DNA of 64,000 bases from Solobacterium sp. (GTDB lineage Bacteria; Bacillota_I; Bacilli_A; Erysipelotrichales; Erysipelotrichaceae). Location of the stretch: the NCBI GenBank assembly GCA_017512725.1, contig JAFWEW010000032.1:186001-250000 (forward strand), read 5' to 3'. Made by a program: the position numbers and the translations under genes. Positions 37,529 through 52,143 of the stretch are shown in pieces (within the stretch, counting starts at the first letter, position 1; every line of letters begins with the position of its first letter). The notes under the pieces are model-generated. The model ran no database searches, was not told the DNA's origin, and was given only the letters and a program-made list of their open reading frames with translations.

Positions 37529-38701
37529 ATGATGTACCGGTTTTCAATCTTTTATATCGAAGCAAATCTTGTCTGTTCCGTCGTGTTCGGCATTTTACTG
37601 CTGCACAATTATTTCAATATTGACCGGCAGGAGAAACAGATCAAGTTTGATCAGGTTCTGATTTCCTTTATCTTTTACTTTCTGGTCGACTGTCTCTGGG
37701 CTGCAATCATTGACGGATATATTCCAAAGAGCCGTCCGATGATGATATTTGAATGTTTCCTGATCTATATTTCAATGGCTGCGACAATGTATTTCTGGCT
37801 TCAGTTCGTACTGGCATACGAACAGGTTCCGCACCGCAACCGGAAGATCAATAAATTTGCAGTACTGTTTCCGTTTATTGTTTCCACGCTTGCGATGATC
37901 CTGAACTTTATCCTTGCGCCGGATGTACTTCTGAATGCAAACAACGATACACTTCCTGCCTACAACATTTACCTTGTGGCAGTTCCTTATATCTATATGG
38001 GCGCAATTCTCTTCTACACATTGCGCAAAGCCCATGCGGAAGAAAGCATTTCCGAAAAGCGGAAACATATCTTTATCGGTATTTTCCCGCTCATGGTAAT
38101 TGCCGGCGGTCTGATCCAGATGATGCATCCGTACATTCCGATTTACTGCTTTACCGTACTGATATTGATGTTATTGTTCTACATCCAGTCCATTGAGCTT
38201 CGGATCTCAATGGATCCGCTCACAAATCTCAATAATCGCGGTCAGCTGACCCGTTATGTAGCACAGGAATCGAACCTGCATATGGAAGGCCGTGATACGG
38301 TTCTGATCATGATGGATATAGACGGCTTCAAGCAGATCAATGATACCTACGGACATGCTGAGGGAGACAAAGCTCTGGTACGCGTTTCGAATGCATTAAA
38401 ACGTACGGTTAACAAATACAGCATGCCGATGTTCCTTGGAAGGTACGGCGGTGATGAGTTTATTCTCATTATCCATCCGACCGATCCTGCTGAAACCGAT
38501 CAGCTGATTCAGGAAATCCGGAAAGAGGTTGCGGAAGAAGCAAAGAATATGCCAAACCCGGTTGGTATCAGCATCGGTTATGATACCCTTGGCAAAGAGG
38601 AAAAAACGATTCAGAACTGTCTGCGGCGTGCAGATAATAATCTCTATAAAGACAAGAAAGAACGAAAGAGCCGTGCATCCGAAACTGCAGCACGGTTCTG
38701 A
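37529..38701 (+). CDS. Membrane-bound diguanylate cyclase (GGDEF)
   Basis: A 390-residue protein. The start at 37529 is supported by AGGG nine bases upstream; the frame is open to ATG 37451, whose upstream residues look non-native. About six to seven hydrophobic helices (residues 5-225) form a membrane sensor. The GGDEF domain follows: MDIDGFKQINDTYGHAEGD, then GRYGGDEFILII with an intact catalytic GGDEF. It should make cyclic di-GMP from two GTPs. No RxxD inhibitory site is evident just before GGDEF. No EAL or PilZ gene is nearby. Confidence 0.9.
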   Translation: MMYRFSIFYIEANLVCSVVFGILLLHNYFNIDRQEKQIKFDQVLISFIFYFLVDCLWAAIIDGYIPKSRPMMIFECFLIYISMAATMYFWLQFVLAYEQVPHRNRKINKFAVLFPFIVSTLAMILNFILAPDVLLNANNDTLPAYNIYLVAVPYIYMGAILFYTLRKAHAEESISEKRKHIFIGIFPLMVIAGGLIQMMHPYIPIYCFTVLILMLLFYIQSIELRISMDPLTNLNNRGQLTRYVAQESNLHMEGRDTVLIMMDIDGFKQINDTYGHAEGDKALVRVSNALKRTVNKYSMPMFLGRYGGDEFILIIHPTDPAETDQLIQEIRKEVAEEAKNMPNPVGISIGYDTLGKEEKTIQNCLRRADNNLYKDKKERKSRASETAARF

Positions 38702-39599: not shown

Positions 39600-40340
39600 A
39601 AACACCAGCACAAAGGAATATGTTGCAAGCCAGAAAATAAAGTAAAAATTGTCAGAAAAGAGGGGAGAGTATGTTGAGAAATGATTTTAAGAAGCAAAAA
39701 ATGATCAGTTCGTCAGAAGTATAGGATCCAGAAGGTCAATTTGGTAAATTCAAAGGTAAACCATAAGAAATACCGATCAATACCAAAACGAAATAAAAAA
39801 GAAATACTAAAATAGATTTTGATTTGTGAATAATTCACAAATAAACATAGATAACAGGGGACTGAAATAGTTTTTTCAACGAAGTAAATGGATAACTGCC
39901 TGGTACCAGAACAGAATAAATACTATTCGTTAAAGAAAGCTGTAAAGGATACTCTTTCATGGTTAAACTGTAACGATCGTTGAACAGTCCCACAATAAAC
40001 TCTCAGACCGTATTTGGGCAATTAATTTCAATAATCAGGATCATCTGGAAATAAACGACTCAATGAGAGCTCTCGAGTAATGAATCAGAAGGTAGTTATC
40101 CATCTAAAATCGTCTCAGCGAGTCTGAGGATGTTCAAAATCAACTGAGCATGTATCGAATAGATCCACGGAATAGTTTCAAGAGACGGTATCGTAAATCA
40201 GAGAAAAATTCAGTGTCATAAGACGACAACTAAACGAATTTCAGACATTAACATGCTGCGATTAATTAATATTACTTCGTATCGATTCAAATATAAAAAA
40301 AGAATCATAAATCGATTCTATGCATCTAAGCCTTTTCATA
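39600..40340 (+). other. AT-rich non-coding stretch left of the dif-like site
   Basis: About 740 bases with frequent stops in all frames and no SD-supported frame longer than about 20 codons. It is clearly richer in A and T than the flanking genes. ATCGATTC occurs twice (40281 and 40311) and ATTACTTCG(T/C)AT twice (40271 and 40345). It may hold remains of lost genes, but I could not identify a protein fragment. Confidence 0.6.
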
Positions 40341-40346
40341 TATATT

Positions 40347-40374
40347 ACTTCGCATAATGTATGTTATGCGATAT
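40347..40374 (+). other. dif: Candidate dif (XerC/XerD) recombination site
   Basis: A 28-base element with Xer-site geometry: left arm ACTTCGCATAA, six-base centre TGTATG, right arm TTATGCGATAT. The inner seven bases of the arms (CGCATAA / TTATGCG) are a perfect inverted repeat. GCATAATGTAT is identical to E. coli dif, and the ACTTC start is typical of Bacillota dif. It lies within 2 kb of the point where gene orientation flips, as a terminus dif should. A plasmid- or phage-type Xer site is the main alternative. Confidence 0.72.
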
Positions 40375-40902: not shown

Positions 40903-43900
40903 TTAGTTGTAGTTTTCTTTTTTCAGCAATAATCCTAAGCCTGAAGCACCAAACAGCATCAGAATCATCAGATAGAATGGGCTTACACCTTCATCTGCTG
41001 TCTTTGGAACTGTTCTGCGTGCCGCAGTGCTGTAGCTGTGGAATACGCCATTATTGTCGATATAACCCGGCTGACATGCCTTAGCTGCTTCATTCCAGGC
41101 ATATCCGTTCGGATATCCAGCCATCTGACAGGTAACGACGGATGAAGTATTGGAGTTGCTGGATTTGGAACTTGAGTTGCCTCCTCCAGAGGAATTCTTA
41201 ATAATATTGAAACGAGAAATAACATCATCACTGTTGTTGAATACCGCTCTCAGAGTATGCCAACCAGCACTCAAGTTCTTGAGGTAAGAAGGCTGCAGAT
41301 TAATGATGACACTTCCATGATCCAATGTATAATCAACATCTTTTGTCAGTTTTGTGTTATCTACATATGCATCAACAAAATGGTCAAATGGATCTTCTGC
41401 ACCAGAAGAAGTATCTGTATTATCGATCTCGATCGATAACGGAGAAGTACCGCCTTCTGTCCAGGATGCATCACCGCCATCAATTACTACATAATTCGAT
41501 TTTTCGACAGTTCCGACTGTAATCCAGTGGATATCTTCTGAACGAAGGTCTCCACCCTTCCAGAGAACAAGCTTTTCCGGGTCTGATGTCGAGTCACTTA
41601 CAAAGATAGAACGTGTTCCTACATCTGGTTCAAATTTTTCATCAGGATAATAAATGGCTTGCTTAGAACCCTTCAAACTAATCACAGAATCATCAGTTGC
41701 ACTCAAGAAACCAGCCAGTCCAATTCCGTAATCTCCTTCGATTGCTTCTGCAATAAGCGTACCATTACCGATAACATTAATATTCCCGAGAATCGCAATG
41801 TTATTCCCTTCACTACCTCTTCCAGCAGTTGCTCTTATCCGAGAATTTGTTACACCTTCACTCGTTACAAACATAATATCGATTGCTCCTGGTGTAAAGA
41901 ATGCAAAGGAGTAACTTGCATCTCCAGAAGTTGCTTCAACGATAGAGTCTTTAATAGTAATGCTTATAGGATCAATTGCTGAAGATGTAGTATTATTGCT
42001 CTCATTCATCGCATTACCGGATGTTACAGTCAAGCAGGAATCTTCCACATCGAGACTCTTTGCACTGATTCCAGTACTGCTGTCAGATACATCATCAAGA
42101 GCAATAAATAAATCACTATGATTTTTGACTTCAATCTCTTTTTCCAAAAAGGCAGCAATTCCATAGTTCAGTGTCCCCTTACCTACCAACAATTCTACAT
42201 TTGAGTTATCTATGGTAACTGCACCATTGATACCGACACTTGCTGGCGCAAAGAATTCCTGAGGTCTTGAGTAAGGATATTGATCGTTAAGAAGAGATGC
42301 ATCGATATCGGCATTCATAGTTACATCGGAGGTTTTAATTCTTAATGAATCAAAGTCTCTGATTGTAACATCACCTTTAATACCAACCGCAAAATCATCT
42401 GCTTTGAAATTTGTAAGATCAATATTAAGCTCAGCGTTCTTTGGAAGAGTTCCTAAAAGCTTTAAGTTTGCATTTTCACCGTTTTTATCAACAGCATAGA
42501 TACCTGCAACAGTATCGTATTCATTAAAGATAAGTTTCTTTTTGGCAATAATACTGTTGACTCCATTGACAATGATATTCAGGTTATCTACTTCACTATA
42601 AACTCCTGCAACAATATCGAGTTCTTCTTCAATACCGCCAATAACTTTTTTAACATTAATTTCAGCATTGTCGAGATAGAGTGTATTTGTATCATTGTCG
42701 AATTTTACACTGGCGTTTTCATCACCAAGGACATTTTCCTTATTTCTTTCATTAACCTGGATACCGGATACCCAAATCTTGTAGAAACCATGCTCAGCAA
42801 AATCCATAGCATTATCAGCTGCAGCTCTCGCACTGCTTGCACTAATACTGGCACTGTAATCATTAAACCAAGCTTTTGCATACAGCAGTGAAGCAACAGT
42901 CATTTCTTTTTCTAATACATCAAGCAGCTTTTTGCCAGGATCAAAACTCTCCTGGAATGCCTTATACTTCTCAAGTGCTTCACCAGCTTTTTCATCAGCT
43001 TTCTTAGCAGCTTCATATACCAGCTTTGCATACCCTGCTTTGATCCTTGCGCCAACTTCATCTTCCAATGCAGATAAATAAGCAACTTTACAAATTGCAG
43101 CAAGTGCAACGCTACTCTTTACTTCTTTGAGCTGTTCTTTAATTTCGTCTTTGCTGTCGCCAATTACTTCATTCAGCTTCTCAACCTGCTTGCTATGGTA
43201 TTCTCCTAAGAGTTCACGGATCTTATGACTGATAGCAGACTTTGTTTTTGTAGCGAACGATACATCAGTTAATTCCTGAACAAATTTAATTACATCATCC
43301 GCTTCTAATCCACCCTGCTGGATTTTTGCTATAACTTGAATTGCATCGGTGATAAATGTAACTCCATTCTCTAATGCAGCAAGCTCAATTTCTTCTTCTT
43401 CAGTAATAGTATGGATTGCCTTTTTTAACTCAAGCTGAGCAATGCGTAAATATAAATTCGATACACCAGAATAATCTTCATTTAATACTCCAGTAATTGC
43501 TTGATCAATCAATCCACCTTCGTATTCAGCTTTTACTGAATTCAATTCCGTATTTGTGTCTTTAAGTTCAGATTCTAACCCTTCTTTTTGTGAAGTTACT
43601 TCATTGATTGCTTTCTGAATTTCATTTTTAGCTTCGGTATATCTTTCTAATGCCGCCTGTTCATTGGCACTAGCTGTATCGAACGCATCTAGTTTTTCGT
43701 TTAAATTTGTTTCAGCAATTTCTGCGGTTCTCCAATAACTAGGAATACTAGTTGAATCAAATAGAGCTAATCCTTTTTTCTCAAAATGATATAGTTCTGT
43801 ATCAATAACTTTGACGTACTGCTTTTTCCCTCCAATATTATAGAAATAATATCCTTTATTATCATCATCATTTAATAAAGGGCGAAGAACATTTCCTGCA

Positions 43901-45675
43901 TAGTAGAAACGATTAGAAGCAATATCACCAACTTTAATATCATATGTATCCTGATTTCTTACTGCAATATATTGTGTTTCTGTCGAACCTTCATAACTAT
44001 CAAGATCAGGAAGTTTATCAATTTCCGTCCCTTTTACATTATCAGTTTTATAAAAATCAAGATAGTGTTTTTCAACTCCCGAATCATCGACTGAAGTTTT
44101 TTCGACAACTGTGTAATACCCAGCCGTTCCATCTTCGTACTCTACACGAAGAACATCATCAGTAACAAATTGGGCGTCTGTGACCTTTTTATGTCCTTCT
44201 TGATAGTTTCCAATATTGCTGACAGTAAGAATAGCAAGATCTTGTTTCTCCGCTAAAGTGATCTCACCATTATTCAGCTTATCTGAAAGTGTGGTAATAG
44301 TTTGAGCAATACCAGCTTTTATAGCTTTGTTATGTTCTTCTATTATTCTTTCGGCATTATTATAAATCTCCCAGGCTTCAGCAAGTTCCTGTTCTGCTTC
44401 TTCAAGCTGTTTCTTAGCAACAGGATATTCGGCGTCATCCGCGTCAAGAGCCTCTAATGCCAGTTGTTTCTCAGCAATTACCCCCTCTGCTTCGGCAATA
44501 GCTCCTTGCAGCTCATCTCGCTTATCCTCTAACTCAGATATTTTATCTTCATAAACCTGAGCCTTATTATTTTCTATATCATCAATGATGATTGCCACCT
44601 CATAGGCAACTCCAGATGCAGCAGTGATTGCTGTCTGCTTCGCAATCTTTCCTGCACTATCTGCCACCATATTGGCAAGCTCTTCAATAGAAGCTTTCAG
44701 TGCATCATCAGCAGCTTCAGATAAGCTCTTTGCGATTTCTGTATTTAATTCAGCCTGTTCCTGAGCTGCGATCATTTCATTGTAATAATCTTCAGCAACA
44801 TTCTTTGCAGCTTCTGTTTTCGCCTTTGCTTCAGACAGAGAAATAACGCCAGCGGCAAGTTCATTCTGTACTAATTCTTTTGTTTCTGCATATTCTTTTT
44901 GAGCAGCATCATAAGCGGCAGTTGCTTCAAGTAACTTAGCATATGCTTCTTCTGCCTGTTCGTGTGCAACCTTGGCAGCTTCTTCTGCTTTCGTTGCATT
45001 CTCATCTGCTTCATTCGCATATTCAAAAGCTTCTACCTGAGTATTCGCATTTAAAGTATCGTTGTAATTTTGCTGAGCAGCCTCTTCTGCTTCTTCTGCC
45101 TGATTAACTGCAACTTCTGACTGAATTACATCAATGCCAATTCCAATAACATCTTTGGTAATTTCAATTCCGTCTTTCGCAATCTCTACATCGGCTTTAA
45201 CACCTTCAACAACCGCATTTGCCAAATGATCGTTCGCCTCATCATCTAAACCAATAGCTCCACTTTCATTCTCAACAATCGGCTCTTTATATTCTTCATC
45301 AATTGGCTGAGCAACAACTATCGTTCCGATCTCAGTAGCTCCAGCCTCAATGATTGCACCTTCAACTTGCAAAACATTGACTGAATCATCGGATTCTTCT
45401 GTAAAATTATCAAATCCTTCCGCTAAATAAACTTCCCCTTGCTGTATAACATCCTGTGGATCAATCCCCTGAACCTGATCAAGATTAACATCAGGTGTCG
45501 GAAGTCCCGAATTATCATTCGTTACTACGATATTATTATCCTGCTCATTATTATCCTGAACAGTCGGTTCTACTTCCGGCTCTTCATCAGCCAATACCAA
45601 ACTGGTATGACCAAACAAAATACCCAGACTCAATATCAGGGCAAACAGGAATTGATTCAAACGATTGTTTTTCAT
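40903..45675 (-). CDS. Giant wall-anchored surface protein with coiled coil and beta-helix-like region
   Basis: A 1590-residue protein with a signal peptide (1-29, ending SLVLADEE). Then come an acidic segment, an Ala/Glu-rich coiled coil (about 190-345 and 375-460), a mixed region with SLLNDDDNKGYYFYNIGG-like strands (about 480-640), more coiled coil (about 650-960), a repetitive beta-rich region (about 965-1400) that looks like a parallel beta-helix, and an X2/Ig-like module. A Gly/Ser/Asn linker leads to a paired-cysteine module (CQMAGYPNGYAW ... CQPGY), then VPKTADEG, a hydrophobic helix and KKENYN, a sortase signal with V for L and A for G. Likely an adhesin; the ligand is unknown. Base composition is AT-richer than the core genes. 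Confidence 0.8.
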   Translation of the reverse strand: MKNNRLNQFLFALILSLGILFGHTSLVLADEEPEVEPTVQDNNEQDNNIVVTNDNSGLPTPDVNLDQVQGIDPQDVIQQGEVYLAEGFDNFTEESDDSVNVLQVEGAIIEAGATEIGTIVVAQPIDEEYKEPIVENESGAIGLDDEANDHLANAVVEGVKADVEIAKDGIEITKDVIGIGIDVIQSEVAVNQAEEAEEAAQQNYNDTLNANTQVEAFEYANEADENATKAEEAAKVAHEQAEEAYAKLLEATAAYDAAQKEYAETKELVQNELAAGVISLSEAKAKTEAAKNVAEDYYNEMIAAQEQAELNTEIAKSLSEAADDALKASIEELANMVADSAGKIAKQTAITAASGVAYEVAIIIDDIENNKAQVYEDKISELEDKRDELQGAIAEAEGVIAEKQLALEALDADDAEYPVAKKQLEEAEQELAEAWEIYNNAERIIEEHNKAIKAGIAQTITTLSDKLNNGEITLAEKQDLAILTVSNIGNYQEGHKKVTDAQFVTDDVLRVEYEDGTAGYYTVVEKTSVDDSGVEKHYLDFYKTDNVKGTEIDKLPDLDSYEGSTETQYIAVRNQDTYDIKVGDIASNRFYYAGNVLRPLLNDDDNKGYYFYNIGGKKQYVKVIDTELYHFEKKGLALFDSTSIPSYWRTAEIAETNLNEKLDAFDTASANEQAALERYTEAKNEIQKAINEVTSQKEGLESELKDTNTELNSVKAEYEGGLIDQAITGVLNEDYSGVSNLYLRIAQLELKKAIHTITEEEEIELAALENGVTFITDAIQVIAKIQQGGLEADDVIKFVQELTDVSFATKTKSAISHKIRELLGEYHSKQVEKLNEVIGDSKDEIKEQLKEVKSSVALAAICKVAYLSALEDEVGARIKAGYAKLVYEAAKKADEKAGEALEKYKAFQESFDPGKKLLDVLEKEMTVASLLYAKAWFNDYSASISASSARAAADNAMDFAEHGFYKIWVSGIQVNERNKENVLGDENASVKFDNDTNTLYLDNAEINVKKVIGGIEEELDIVAGVYSEVDNLNIIVNGVNSIIAKKKLIFNEYDTVAGIYAVDKNGENANLKLLGTLPKNAELNIDLTNFKADDFAVGIKGDVTIRDFDSLRIKTSDVTMNADIDASLLNDQYPYSRPQEFFAPASVGINGAVTIDNSNVELLVGKGTLNYGIAAFLEKEIEVKNHSDLFIALDDVSDSSTGISAKSLDVEDSCLTVTSGNAMNESNNTTSSAIDPISITIKDSIVEATSGDASYSFAFFTPGAIDIMFVTSEGVTNSRIRATAGRGSEGNNIAILGNINVIGNGTLIAEAIEGDYGIGLAGFLSATDDSVISLKGSKQAIYYPDEKFEPDVGTRSIFVSDSTSDPEKLVLWKGGDLRSEDIHWITVGTVEKSNYVVIDGGDASWTEGGTSPLSIEIDNTDTSSGAEDPFDHFVDAYVDNTKLTKDVDYTLDHGSVIINLQPSYLKNLSAGWHTLRAVFNNSDDVISRFNIIKNSSGGGNSSSKSSNSNTSSVVTCQMAGYPNGYAWNEAAKACQPGYIDNNGVFHSYSTAARRTVPKTADEGVSPFYLMILMLFGASGLGLLLKKENYN

Positions 45676-45717
45676 AGATTACCTCGCGATTATGCATGTG
45701 AAGAAGACATGCGTACG

Positions 45718-45736
45718 TAAAAGTACTTTTATTATA
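45718..45736 (-). promoter_or_regulatory. -10 box and adjacent palindrome ahead of the giant wall protein gene
   Basis: On the minus strand, TATAAT (45736-45731) abuts a perfect 14-base palindrome TAAAAGTACTTTTA (45731-45718) at the expected transcript start, a good place for an operator. The -35 hexamer is weak. A second hairpin, GCATGT / ACATGC (45694-45712), lies in the leader before the SD GAGGT. Confidence 0.5.
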
Positions 45737-45759
45737 TTGGTATCCTAAGCATCATTTCC

Positions 45760-46640
45760 CGTATAAAATGGTCACAAAAAGGACAAATTTCAAATTTCTC
45801 GGGTAAAAATGTAACAAAATGATTCTGTTTTCATTTCCTATATTTATCGGTGTTTTCAACGCTAATAGTAGTGTACGTAATCATACTTTCAACCGCAAAA
45901 ACTGTATTTTGGGAAAAAATTTTTTGAATAAATTAAATTTATACGAAGAATTCAATTATTTTCCATTTACTTTTCACTTCAGATCGTATTTTTTCATTCC
46001 ATAATCGTTTATTTTTTTGCAAAAGCATGAAAATCACACCTGTGATATTGCGCCTGGAATACTACTTTGAAGTTCCCGTAACAGCTCATTTTCTTTCCTG
46101 AATTCGTTCAAAATTCTGTTCTGTTTTCTATCTCATTTTTCTCCTCTCCGGCAATCAGAAAATCATCTGAATTGAATTTTAAAATCATACAATCTATTTC
46201 TCAAAATCTCCCTGATGAATTTTGAAATTCAAAAAATGAAAATCAAAAATAGTTCTCTTGCGTCAGATCTTGTTTCATGGAAACAGATACATCTCAAATC
46301 GAGTAAACTATCATTTTTTCCTGTTTCACTTCTGCAATCTATGTTCGCAGCTGATATGGAATTTTTTCCTTCTGGTTCAGTAAGATCTCTCTAAAAATCT
46401 TCCTTTGAAATTCAAAAGCCGCATCGATATATAAAAAAATCTTTCTCTTTTTTCCATTAAGTTCCGAAAATGATTTCTGTTTCCAGATTGTTGGAATCTG
46501 ATGTAATACAATGATCGGAATATATAGAAAAACATGCAAAATACACAGAAAATCAATATAAATTCCACTTTTGTGTCTATTTCGTACAGTTATCGGTGAC
46601 ATTAGATTCTTAATATATATGTACTTAGCTATTTTTTTAA
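45760..46640 (+). other. AT-rich divergent intergenic region between the two wall protein genes
   Basis: About 880 bases, very rich in A and T, with no SD-supported frame. Frames of 61-103 codons exist but consist of low-complexity Lys/Ile/Phe residues and lack start signals. Several short inverted repeats are present (for example GAATTTTGAAATTC near 46215). The promoters of both divergent giant genes must lie at its two ends. Confidence 0.6.
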
Positions 46641-46651
46641 GAGGTATCATG

Positions 46652-49600
46652 ATGGAAAATAAACGGATCCTGGAATTTCTGGCAGCCTTACTGGTAAGTA
46701 TCGGGCTTTTATTCGGCCGGACAAATACGGTTCTTGCGGAGGAAAATGATATACCTGAAACATCAGAAACTTCTGCTGTTGAAAATGAACCTTCGGATTC
46801 GAAATCTTCCCCTGCAGATGAAACTGGAAATGATAATACAAATGATAATTTTTATGTTGAGAATGCTCCGGAAGTAATTGAACAGCCAACGGATCCGGAA
46901 GTAACACAGCCTTCTGCAGAAACACCGGATTCTTTTATCGCGCCGGAATATCCGCAGACGTTACCTTCTGATACCACTCAGACTTATATAGATACAGATA
47001 ATAATGTGAATCCTGCTGATCCTGTTACAGAAGTGCTTCCTGCTGCAGAAGGATCAGAAACAATTCAGCCGGAAACGGATACCCCGAATGCCGCTGATCC
47101 GGAAGAATCCTTCCTCAGCGATTCTCCAGCTGATGTGAATGAATCAATTGCTGATAATGAAAATTATATCAGCGACTCCCCTGCTGAACCGGATGAATCG
47201 GTTGATCATACGGAAAATAATGCTCCGATGCTTCGGATGGCTGCTGCTCCTGCAGAGTCTTCCACAGAGAATGCATCTGTTTCAGAGCCTGACCGCAGTG
47301 ACAACTATATTGAAGGCATTGCTTATATGTCGAACCGCCATGAGACCTATGACATGCCGATCAAGTTTATCTATAGTGACAGTTATTTTTATCATGATTC
47401 CACTTCCGATGAGTATGCATATTATCCCGAACTCGCTGCGATGTCCGCTGTTATAGCGAATTCGACCAACCCCAGTTACCGTGCCGGGGGTTATATTTAC
47501 GAAGATGGAGAAATCAAGCGGATTGAAGAGATCGAAGATGCCGTAAGACAAGAGAACGGATCGAAGAATGTTCAGGATCTGTTAAGAACGATCGGATTTG
47601 AGAATATCCAGATCAATGATGCCTATACCAAGATCGGAACTCCGGTCTCTGCCGGTGTTGTCTGCGGCATGAAAAAGATGATTGATGATAATGGAAAGGA
47701 ATTTACTCTGATTGCTTTTATTCCAAGATCAGTTGGATATCTTGGAGAATGGGCAAATAATCCGGAAGTTGGTGAAGGAGGTCCCGATAACAGTAATGAT
47801 CATCTGGGATTCAGTGCTGCCACAATCGATTATATGCTTCCATTCCTTGAACAATATTTAAAAGAAAATAATGTGACTGGTGATCTGAAAATCTGGTCTA
47901 CCGGCATGTCGCGTGGTGGTGGATTGTCTAATACTGCGGTTGCGTATCTGGATGATATGCTCGATGAAAATGGCACAACCGAACAGTTATTCGGAATCGA
48001 AGGTCTTCGGCTGAATCAGAAAGACATCTATTCCTATACCTTTGGTGCTCCGCATGCCGCAAGTGCAACTCATGCAGATATCATTGATGAAAACGGAAAC
48101 CTGGTTCGTAATCCGAAATACAATAACATTCATAATTTTGCGGCAGAATACGACTTCTTAAACCGTGTACTCTACGGAAACTGGAACTTTGACCGTTATG
48201 GAAGAGACACAGAAGTGGCATTGAGTGATGCGGAGGAAAATCTTGCCGAACTTCTTGAGATGTACGCGGTAATTAATAATAAGGATATTTCGGAATTAAA
48301 TGATAAAGATTATATCTATTTAACAGAAGATGGTTCGATCTATTATGAGCCTCTGGAGTTCAGCACGTATTACTGGGGCGATGGTATTTTACCGGAGAAA
48401 ATGGATCTGACCGAGTTCCTGACTGCTTATATGTATAACTTGACCGATACATTTACCAGAGATGAGTTTGCTAACGGCATGCAAAGCGGTTTGCAGATGC
48501 TCGCAAAAATCTTTATCGGTACCCCTCCTGAGAAGTATGGCAATCTCACGACGGATGTATTCCTTGAGGCCGCTAAAACGAAAGCAATGGAGATTGCTGC
48601 AGAAGCAGTGATCGATCTGATGCTGGAAGACACAGATGCGTTACTCGAGCTTCTGAAATATGCTTTGAATCCGCTTGAGACCCTGCCGGATATTTTCCTC
48701 GACGGACTTTACAGTATCGATCTTGCTCCGGACTGGAACTTCACCACCCGTCAGCCGTTTACGGATGAAACCGAAGAAGAAAGACGCGCTATTTATAAAG
48801 ATTACTTACAGACAATGATCAAGCAGGCGCTGAAGGTTCTGCCGCAGGATCTGCTCGGAGTATATGGTTTCTATAAGAGCACCAGCAGCCTCTGGAGCAG
48901 TCATGAGCTGGATGTCTATCTGTCATGGCAGCGGATACTTTCCTCCGAACAGGATAAGGAATACTATCTGGTAAAGCCTACTGCAGCGGAAGCCTGGGGT
49001 TATCGTATGATCACCCTTCCGGAATACGAAGACAATTCAATGCTTATCGTATTGTATGAAGAACCGGAATCTGAAGAAGGTCTCACCATACTGCGGGCGA
49101 TTATTTCCGACGATGATATGATGATGTTCCGCAATCAGGATCACTTTATTCATATGAATGTTGATTCTGCCGGCAGACGTGTACTGTATCTTCGTGCCGA
49201 TAAAGTATATACCCTAGAGTTCATTCCAAAAGAAACGGTTAATACCCATGACTTAAGCATTATTGAATTCTCTTATATGGATTCTCCTGTGATCTATGAT
49301 CCCGCGCATCCGGATTATCAGTTCTTTACCGATGACTATAATGTCGATCTAACTGCCCTTCCTCTGATTTACCTGGAAGATGGTGACACCGTTCTGTCCG
49401 ACCGGATGCTGCTGGAAATCGGAAGGATCTCCTTTGACCCGGTCAGCGGACTTCTGATGACACGCAGCTTAGATTCCTCAAGAACCCTCTCTGCTGCACC
49501 GGTACCTGGTCAATATGGTCACTTTGCGGATTCCTATACCGTATCGAAATACATTCAGCTTGGTGCGGTCGCGGATATCGGCGGATCCGTCAGTGACATC

Positions 49601-50023
49601 ATGGAACTCTTATTCTCCAGCAAAGAAGGTCTGAATACCGAAAAAACAGCGACCCTTACCGCTTCCAGCAGTTCCGGTTACCGGTTCCTTGGCTGGTACC
49701 TGAACGGACAGCTGATTTCCACCGATCCGACGCTTTCCAGAACGTATACGTTCTTTAACCACTCTGAACTGCTGACCGCACGGTTCGAACTGGTTCCTTC
49801 TCCCAAACCGGATCCCAAACCTTCCCCTTCCGGAAAAGGGTCTTCCGCAGTCGCAGACATTCCGGTCGTAGCCAATGGTACGTTCACTTCTGCGGTACAG
49901 CATACCCGTGTGAACCGTGTTCCCAATACCGGTGATGAGAATCCTCTGCACTGGCTGATCCTGCTGTTTGGCAGTCTGGCACTTGCAGTCGGATCGATCT
50001 GCCTGCTCAAGGAAAACGATTAA
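46652..50023 (+). CDS. Wall-anchored lipase-like alpha/beta hydrolase
   Basis: About 1123 residues. ATG 46652 has AGAGGT six bases upstream; ATG 46649 is adjacent. The signal peptide MENKRILEFLAALLVSIGLL resembles that of the divergent neighbour. An acidic Pro/Thr/Ser-rich stretch (about 30-210) precedes a hydrolase domain with IWSTGMSRGGG (nucleophile Ser about 420, GxSxG), SYTFGAPHAAS, EYDFLNRV (likely Asp) and SHELDVYLSW (possible His). Near the end, SGYRFLGWYLNGQ is an InlB-B-like repeat, then a Pro/Lys linker, VPNTGDE, a helix and KEND, a sortase signal. Probably a cell-surface esterase or lipase; the substrate is unknown. Confidence 0.82.
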   Translation: MENKRILEFLAALLVSIGLLFGRTNTVLAEENDIPETSETSAVENEPSDSKSSPADETGNDNTNDNFYVENAPEVIEQPTDPEVTQPSAETPDSFIAPEYPQTLPSDTTQTYIDTDNNVNPADPVTEVLPAAEGSETIQPETDTPNAADPEESFLSDSPADVNESIADNENYISDSPAEPDESVDHTENNAPMLRMAAAPAESSTENASVSEPDRSDNYIEGIAYMSNRHETYDMPIKFIYSDSYFYHDSTSDEYAYYPELAAMSAVIANSTNPSYRAGGYIYEDGEIKRIEEIEDAVRQENGSKNVQDLLRTIGFENIQINDAYTKIGTPVSAGVVCGMKKMIDDNGKEFTLIAFIPRSVGYLGEWANNPEVGEGGPDNSNDHLGFSAATIDYMLPFLEQYLKENNVTGDLKIWSTGMSRGGGLSNTAVAYLDDMLDENGTTEQLFGIEGLRLNQKDIYSYTFGAPHAASATHADIIDENGNLVRNPKYNNIHNFAAEYDFLNRVLYGNWNFDRYGRDTEVALSDAEENLAELLEMYAVINNKDISELNDKDYIYLTEDGSIYYEPLEFSTYYWGDGILPEKMDLTEFLTAYMYNLTDTFTRDEFANGMQSGLQMLAKIFIGTPPEKYGNLTTDVFLEAAKTKAMEIAAEAVIDLMLEDTDALLELLKYALNPLETLPDIFLDGLYSIDLAPDWNFTTRQPFTDETEEERRAIYKDYLQTMIKQALKVLPQDLLGVYGFYKSTSSLWSSHELDVYLSWQRILSSEQDKEYYLVKPTAAEAWGYRMITLPEYEDNSMLIVLYEEPESEEGLTILRAIISDDDMMMFRNQDHFIHMNVDSAGRRVLYLRADKVYTLEFIPKETVNTHDLSIIEFSYMDSPVIYDPAHPDYQFFTDDYNVDLTALPLIYLEDGDTVLSDRMLLEIGRISFDPVSGLLMTRSLDSSRTLSAAPVPGQYGHFADSYTVSKYIQLGAVADIGGSVSDIMELLFSSKEGLNTEKTATLTASSSSGYRFLGWYLNGQLISTDPTLSRTYTFFNHSELLTARFELVPSPKPDPKPSPSGKGSSAVADIPVVANGTFTSAVQHTRVNRVPNTGDENPLHWLILLFGSLALAVGSICLLKEND

Positions 50024-50075: not shown

Positions 50076-50981
50076 TCATTTCAGATCGCTGTCATCTTTT
50101 CCGCCCGGGTGGAACCTGGCATAGCTTTCAAACATCTGCCGGTTTGCCACATGGGTATAGATCTCGGTTGTTTTGATATCCGAATGCCCGAGCATTTCCT
50201 GAATTGCTCGGAGATCCGCCCCTCCCTGCAGCAAATGCGTCGCATAGCTGTGACGCAGTTTATGCGGGGTGATATGTTCCTTGAAGTCCAGTTCCACGCA
50301 TTTATCCCGTAACAGGCTTTCAACATATTCCCGTGTTACCTTCCGTCCGAACCGGTTAATGAAAAAGAGATTCGTGTTTTTGTGCAGATATACCGGACGC
50401 ACCAGATGGTAATACCGCTCTAATACCGTAATCGAACCATTGGGGATCGGTACGATCCGTTCTTTATTCCCCTTACCGAGAATTCTTGCCATGCCGGTCT
50501 CAAGATCCACCCGGTTGACGGTAATGGAGGTCGCTTCGGATACCCTCATCCCGCAGGAGTAGATCAGTTCCAGCAAGGCATGCTGGAACAGCTGTTCCGG
50601 ATTGGAATCATCAAAACTTCCCATCAGCCGGTTGATCTGTTCCACCGTCGCAAATACCGGCAGGCTTTTGACACCCCGGTGCACTTCAATGTTCAGGGAA
50701 GGGTCTTTCTCCCCGTACATGTAGTTCAGGTATTGATGAAAGGAACGGATACTGGCAGACATGCGGGAAAGGCTGGTGCCTTTCTTCGTCATGCTCTGTT
50801 CGATGATGAACCCTTCTACCAGTTCCCCGGATACCTTTTTCGTATCTTTGATGCCTTCCTCTTCCAGAAAGTCCAGATACTGCTTCAGATCACTTTCATA
50901 GGACTTTACGGTTCGGGGAGACTTTCCTTCATTGACGGTCAGTTCCGTCAGGTACCGTTTCAGCGCATCATTCAGCTTCAT
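50076..50981 (-). CDS. xerD: Tyrosine recombinase XerD
   Basis: A 301-residue site-specific recombinase. ATG 50981 has GAGG nine bases upstream; an in-frame GTG at 50996 is less likely. The N-terminal core-binding domain starts LNDALKRYLTELTVNEG. The catalytic set is complete: R146 (CGMRVSE), K170 (GKGNKER), H240 and R243 (HKLRHSYATHLL), H266 (GHSDIKTTEIY) and Y275. XerD with XerC resolves chromosome dimers at dif. It is the last gene of the nusB-to-xerD operon and lies about 10 kb from the candidate dif site. A related integrase role is less likely given the operon. Confidence 0.93.
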   Translation of the reverse strand: MKLNDALKRYLTELTVNEGKSPRTVKSYESDLKQYLDFLEEEGIKDTKKVSGELVEGFIIEQSMTKKGTSLSRMSASIRSFHQYLNYMYGEKDPSLNIEVHRGVKSLPVFATVEQINRLMGSFDDSNPEQLFQHALLELIYSCGMRVSEATSITVNRVDLETGMARILGKGNKERIVPIPNGSITVLERYYHLVRPVYLHKNTNLFFINRFGRKVTREYVESLLRDKCVELDFKEHITPHKLRHSYATHLLQGGADLRAIQEMLGHSDIKTTEIYTHVANRQMFESYARFHPGGKDDSDLK

Positions 50982-52143
50982 CTTTGAATGCCTCACTTGC
51001 CCGCATCAGTTTCAGTCCGCCAAGCTCCTTATTCAGTTCATTGAGAACCGAAATCGTTTCTTCCCTGCGTGCGATCGACGCATCAAACAGGTTGATCTGA
51101 CTGGCCAGCATATCTTCCTTCTCAAAATCCGAGACAGAGATACCGATCAGCCGTACCGGTTCCTGATCCCAGTTGTCATTAAACAGACTGATTGCCTGTA
51201 CATAAATATCATCAGCCTTCCACACCGGTTCCTTTACCCGTACACTGCGGTCCGCATTGGAGAAGTCATAGTATTTGATCCGGATCGAAACAAGACTCCC
51301 GGCCTTCCCTGCTTTCCGAAGCCGTTCCGATAAGGTTCTTGAAAGACTGCGGAACATGCCCCGCAGTTCATCATAATCGGTAAGATCTTCCAGAAAGGTT
51401 TCCGAGATTCCCATGCTTTTGGCATCCCATTCGGTAACGATCTGACGGTCATCATAACCGTTTGCCCTTCGGATCATCTCTTCGGTATTCTTTCCCAGGA
51501 TCGGCCGCAGTTCTTCCGGGTTCTTCCAGTTGGCAAGATCCCCGATCGTATGGATATTCATCTCTTCCATTAACGGCAGAGTCCTTGCGCCGACGCCCCG
51601 CATATCCTTGATTGGCAGCGGCCAGAGCTTCTGAGGAACCTCACGTATCCGCAGTACCGTAATCCCGTTGGGCTTTTTCATGTCGCTTGCCATCTTGGCA
51701 AGGAACAGATTCGGTGCTACTCCAATCGAACAGGAAAGTCCAAGCTCATCCCTGACCCGTTTCTGGATCTGCCAGGCAAGATCCAGAGGCCGGTCCAGTT
51801 TCAGGATGGCATCGGTCATATCGGCATAACATTCATCGACGCTTGCGATCTCCATTGTATCGGTATAGCCGGCAATAATATTCATAAAGTCTTCCGACAT
51901 CTGATGATAGTAATGATAGTGCGGCTGTACGATGATCAGGTCCCGGCAGAGGCGCCGTGCTTCTTCGATTGGCTGAGCACTGTGTACTCCAAAGGCTCTT
52001 GCCTCATAGCTTGCTGTACTGACCACACTTCTTCTTGTCGTACCGCTGACGGCAATCGGCTTGCCTTTCAGGGAAGGATCCAGCAGTACCTCACAGGACG
52101 CAAAAAAAGCATTGAGATCAATATGAAAATAAACCCGGCTCAT
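50968..52143 (-). CDS. dinB: DNA polymerase IV (DinB)
   Basis: A 391-residue Y-family polymerase. YFHIDLNAFFASCE and SVDECYADMTD hold the three catalytic acidic residues; SIGVAPNLFLAKMASDMKKP and the KDMRGVGARTLP helix-hairpin-helix are typical. It copies damaged templates. The start overlaps the recN stop (ATGA), and the end overlaps the xerD start. A C-terminal sliding-clamp motif is not obvious, but INLFDAS at about 350 is a plausible clamp-binding site. Confidence 0.93.
   Translation of the reverse strand: MSRVYFHIDLNAFFASCEVLLDPSLKGKPIAVSGTTRRSVVSTASYEARAFGVHSAQPIEEARRLCRDLIIVQPHYHYYHQMSEDFMNIIAGYTDTMEIASVDECYADMTDAILKLDRPLDLAWQIQKRVRDELGLSCSIGVAPNLFLAKMASDMKKPNGITVLRIREVPQKLWPLPIKDMRGVGARTLPLMEEMNIHTIGDLANWKNPEELRPILGKNTEEMIRRANGYDDRQIVTEWDAKSMGISETFLEDLTDYDELRGMFRSLSRTLSERLRKAGKAGSLVSIRIKYYDFSNADRSVRVKEPVWKADDIYVQAISLFNDNWDQEPVRLIGISVSDFEKEDMLASQINLFDASIARREETISVLNELNKELGGLKLMRASEAFKDEAE

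Follow-up and report, generated by a model that had tools for sequence, protein, structure and literature searches.

A chromosomal dif site with an apparently recoded XerD arm, and a correspondingly altered XerD, in a gut Erysipelotrichaceae bacterium

The window analysed here, a stretch of 64,000 nucleotides (G000:C13:186001-250000), belongs to a 2.72-Mb draft genome in 45 contigs, and carries on its forward strand a 28-bp site of the 11-6-11 type. The site, ACTTCGCATAA-TGTATG-TTATGCGATAT, was recovered at 40347-40374 exactly as the first-pass annotation had read it. The left (XerC) arm (40347..40357) is identical in genera with canonical and with altered sites, while the central crossover region of 6 bp (40358..40363) occurs as TGTATA, TGTATG or TGTATC in relatives; the right (XerD) arm (40364..40374) is recoded at dif positions 23-24, here C40369 and G40370, relative to the TTATGTAA of the family. 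The inner inverted repeat is indeed perfect, but it extends over 8 bp (TCGCATAA/TTATGCGA), one more than the seven previously claimed. The arms agree at 9/11 positions; the figure is 7-8 for relatives with canonical sites and 6 for E. coli. Within the window, the 22-bp core had no second match with ≤3 mismatches, and none was found in 100 shuffles; in the 2.72-Mb genome, the 30-mer was single-copy in a search allowing up to 3 mismatches. A degenerate copy of the left arm, ATATTACTTCGTAT (40269..40282, forward strand), was detected 73 bp upstream by a repeat search; it is absent from the flanks of the relatives' sites and is probably a chance occurrence. On the reverse strand, 10 kb from dif (about 25 bp in the relative G012), lies xerD (50076..50996, 306 aa), identified from its open reading frame, HMM scores and a tree, with the specificity motif R-E-Y instead of R-Q-Y. 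Upstream, a gene resembling that of DNA polymerase IV (dinB), so named from reading its sequence (50968..52143, reverse strand), overlaps the start of xerD by 29 bp. A GC-poor stretch adjoins dif (0.35-0.39 versus 0.50, about 40.9-47 kb), and the region 40903-50023 encodes two large proteins of 1590 and 1150 aa, with almost no Pfam matches and probably surface-exposed.

The position of the site is that of a replication terminus. The strand switch already noticed there was borne out by GC skew, which near 38-42 kb drops from roughly +0.05 to roughly -0.1. The skew analysis covered the full contig of the window together with stretches sampled from two relatives whose assemblies are long. In G003, a gapless single contig of 2.62 Mb, cumulative GC skew over the surrounding 100 kb peaked at 1420500, 40 bp from the site (1420540), and in G012 the local maximum (697225) lay about 350 bp from the site (696871); widely spaced coarse samples of both chromosomes displayed the same switch, barring a few local islands. 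The expected coincidence with a skew extremum was thus close in the relatives and looser on the window's own contig, where the GC-skew maximum was at window position 37534, 2.8 kb away, and the AT-skew maximum at 40311, 36 bp away. Conservation of the site among relatives, also proposed as a check, was observed at the skew maximum in G003 and G012. More broadly, the site was present in 49/70 congeners (33/41 among good assemblies), with 0 matches for a reversed-pattern control, and matches with ≤3 mismatches were found in 200/316 genomes of the order. A contig scan with TCGCATAATGTATNTTATGCG returned mostly Erysipelotrichaceae, including Bulleidia extructa and Solobacterium MAGs, whose genus is also that of the window.

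The complement of recombinases is in line with an XerCD/dif system. The genome encodes two XerC/XerD-type Xer paralogs, one near dif and one distant, and an FtsK with a gamma domain (102 bits). The dif-near paralog scored higher with the XerD model TIGR02225 (279.9 bits) than with the XerC model TIGR02224 (264.8 bits), and the distant one higher with the XerC model (323.2 versus 314.7 bits). In the tree, the dif-near paralogs were grouped on one side with E. coli XerD, the Oceanobacillus paralog with an RQG motif and the SAR116 paralogs with RHQ (support 97/94). The origin-side paralog had at first been read as XerD, with a Gly-to-Ser change at residue 222 tracking the arm; a tree test did not support this tracking, and motif, HMM scores and tree together ruled out that assignment in favor of XerC. 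It has been reported that the key motifs are XRX in XerC, RQX in XerD and XKX in XerA (PMC2958812), and that xerC tends to be the gene near dif (Kono et al., PMC3025954); compared with this usual arrangement, the present one is reversed, with xerD near dif. A XerD arm of the form TTATGT(N)A and an RQX motif are likewise replaced here, by TTATGCGA and REY. These two features are typical of XerCD/dif and not strictly defining, as Xanthomonas has a TTATGCGA arm. The 28-mer is the chromosomal dif of a gut Erysipelotrichaceae bacterium: a single site with inverted arms, at the skew switch and conserved at the relatives' skew maximum, in a genome with XerC, XerD and the FtsK gamma domain. The chromosomal role proposed from the first reading therefore stands, and no distant skew extremum in the relatives, second copy or mobile copy was found to contradict it.

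In most other sampled genera of the family and its sister family, the site reads ACTTCGCATAA TGTATR TTATGTAA or a close variant. By contrast with that form, the genus of the window and a group of related ones have a right arm reading TTATGCGA or TTATACGA; TTATGCGA mirrors the XerC arm and differs from TTATGTAA by a change from TA to CG at positions 23-24. The specificity of XerD binding owes much to positions 23 and 24, with XerD Q221 as the predicted contact of base 24 (Carnoy and Roten, PMC2731167). Positions 5, 6, 23 and 24, seldom palindromic in Proteobacteria (PMC2731167), are all palindromic here. The first-pass annotation had regarded the site as a hybrid between the E. coli and Bacillota forms, a view which holds only in small part: its supposedly E. 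coli-like portion, ACTTCGCATAATGTAT, is ordinary arm and centre, found throughout the family and order, also in genera with a canonical arm. Judged from the sequences, the real oddity of the site appears to be a two-base recoding of the XerD arm, with XerD altered to match.

The E. coli dif/XerCD-FtsK system has the same 11-6-11 organization, terminus position, GCATAATGTAT left arm and centre, XerC, XerD and FtsK gamma; it differs in its XerD arm (TTATGTTA versus TTATGCGA), in XerD residue 221 (Gln versus Glu) and in the lower agreement of its arms. Bacillus subtilis Bsdif with CodV-RipX is a Bacillota two-recombinase dif with the same ACTTC start; the present system departs from it by the recoded XerD arm and by xerD rather than xerC lying near dif. 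The dif of Xanthomonas campestris, TCCTGACATAATATACATTATGCGAAAT, naturally has the TTATGCGA XerD arm (PMC2731167), with a different left arm and an arm agreement of only 6/11.

The residue at position 221 of XerD was associated with base 24 of dif in a set of 96 genomes, selected with a pattern in which the left arm was fixed, as was most of the right one. Where base 24 was A or T, residue 221 was Q (26), E (5), V (4), A (2) or M (1), and the one case with C had Q; where it was G, the residue was R (23), K (12), E (18), D (2) or H (2), and never Q. Gln221 thus accompanied A, T or C in 27/27 cases and Arg or Lys G in 35/35, while Glu221 was ambiguous (18 with G and 5 with A, the latter mostly in the sister family). 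Among all columns, residue 221 carried the highest mutual information with base 24, 0.83 bits versus 0.59 for the next. XerC, for its part, has Arg221 in 101/101 genomes, which fits the invariant G that the left arm shows when read on its other strand. Residue 220 was Arg in 29/30 genomes with T at base 23 and in 8/65 with C, a strong association, although the tree has just 4 changes of base 23, too few for a test. Several XerD-arm variants (TTATCCAA, TTATTCAT, TTATACAT, TTATACAA) occur in G214, G215, G226, G229 and G230, whose XerD has Ala, Val or Met at residue 221, perhaps a third kind of specificity.

The rule was also followed outside the order. SAR116 alphaproteobacteria carry sites of the form TTGTCGCATAA TGTATA TTATGCGT, and their XerD motif is RHQ in 4/4 genomes, lacking Gln221 as predicted; as the four genomes form one lineage, this counts as one confirmation. 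His221 is common to SAR116 and to a separate Erysipelotrichaceae lineage (G223/G224). An Oceanobacillus site with the same core misfits the rule, the XerD of that genome having RQG; this site is probably not its dif, which would be another one.

Such an association could have arisen by descent. Because most altered-arm genomes form one clade (about 65 XerD rows), the plain association of base and residue is confounded, and the site could be a dif with a neutrally drifted XerD arm, the protein changes reflecting clade history without meaning for specificity. Within the altered clade alone, however, residue 221 was again the top column (0.57 bits versus 0.29 for the next), and rows with A at base 24 had Q, V, A or M in 10/11 cases. 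A tree computed with the helix columns removed places 11 changes at base 24. Among 8 well-supported independent pairs, 6 changed the same way, 0 the other way and 2 not at all (sign test p = 0.031, a value obtained with 8 pairs, a quick tree and residue classes, RKEDH versus QVAM, that were set after the table was seen). The informative pairs were thus concordant 6/6, as was the outside SAR116 lineage, and neutral drift appears unlikely.

We consider it distinctly unlikely that a single recombinase acts on both near-identical arms, in the manner of XerH, XerS or XerA, the other paralog having another job. Near-symmetric arms are indeed shared with XerA/dif of archaea, XerH/difH and XerS/difSL, and in addition to the 9/11 agreement, an XerC-like xRx motif is frequent in altered-arm XerD, and palindromic sites with the same core are found in Poseidoniales archaea and a Patescibacterium whose Xer, where found, carries xRx. 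Those known systems nevertheless rely on one recombinase, whereas two paralogs occur here, one in the XerC clade and one in the XerD clade, and both genes are kept in nearly every sampled genome. Moreover, residue 221 is an invariant Arg in XerC, whereas in XerD it tracks the right arm, and asymmetry persists in the centre and at bases 9-10. It is extremely improbable that a phage or mobile element uses the site for attachment, in the manner of loxP: the site is single-copy and conserved across genera at the skew maximum, and the contigs of the two-copy genome G040 are those of two near-identical strains. The site is nonetheless the best loxP match in the window (27/34 to P1 loxP), a likeness explained by the ATAATGTAT core common to dif and lox.

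These sequences very probably describe a functional XerCD/dif system in which the XerD arm has been recoded naturally and XerD has changed accordingly. By homology, each recombinase would bind one arm, XerC on the left and XerD on the right; XerD would be activated by FtsK at the division septum, and the pair would recombine two copies of dif, splitting chromosome dimers. The recoding of positions 23-24 would make the XerD arm read like the XerC arm, and residue 221 of XerD would have shifted along with it, from Gln to Glu here and to Arg or Lys in many relatives. Q221 may read A or T at base 24, and R or K (or E or H) may read G or its partner C. As both arms now agree at the bases that classically give XerD its specificity, the choice of arm would have to rest on the outer bases 9-10, the asymmetric TGTATG centre or protein contacts; we infer this, as we do binding and the order of cleavage. 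A more far-reaching proposal, put forward tentatively, is that the clade as a whole possesses a near-symmetric dif with two recombinases retained, arm identity and cleavage order depending not on the bases classically responsible for specificity but on outer bases, the centre, or contacts between proteins or with FtsK, and that XerD may have convergently acquired an XerC-type reading of DNA.

Co-evolution of Xer and dif was proposed earlier in general terms (PMC2731167), and a recoded dif is not categorically new, since this proposal and the TTATGCGA arm of X. campestris were already known. Searches of the open-access literature turned up neither this residue-base code nor, for Erysipelotrichaceae, a near-symmetric dif served by two recombinases. 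With about 60 species bearing a recoded XerD half-site, reversals included, and a single residue tracking a single base, this group offers a natural experiment in tyrosine-recombinase specificity. It brings evolutionary support to the Q221-base 24 contact, hitherto only predicted from the structure of XerD, and makes it testable how XerC and XerD pick their arms when these are nearly identical. In practical terms, dif predictors requiring TTATGT would miss or misread recoded sites.

Other observations concern the sites of further genomes. In G168, a 97% complete genome of the same family (genus g19), no dif match was obtained, nor any XerC/XerD match at E 1e-60; its congeners differ from it, and it may have lost or replaced the XerCD/dif system. 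Several draft contigs stop within about 10 bp of dif (G030:C243, G059:C34, G155:C29, L246, L279), and the assembly may have broken at these points because of elements integrated there. Integrated elements had been suspected from these ends and from two-copy genomes; G040, the one checked, was explained by its strain contigs as above. Beyond bacteria, palindromic GTCGCATAATGTATGTTATGCGAC sites, several with a common flank, occur in marine Euryarchaeota/Poseidoniales (L222, L226, L227, L235, L249, L250, L270, L274, L280, L281, L285) and are candidate archaeal dif sites, with the same core as the window site; in three of the genomes bearing them, the Xer found has an xRT motif. The same core is fully palindromic in L231, L218, L284 and L276, from Patescibacteria and one Oceanobacillus.
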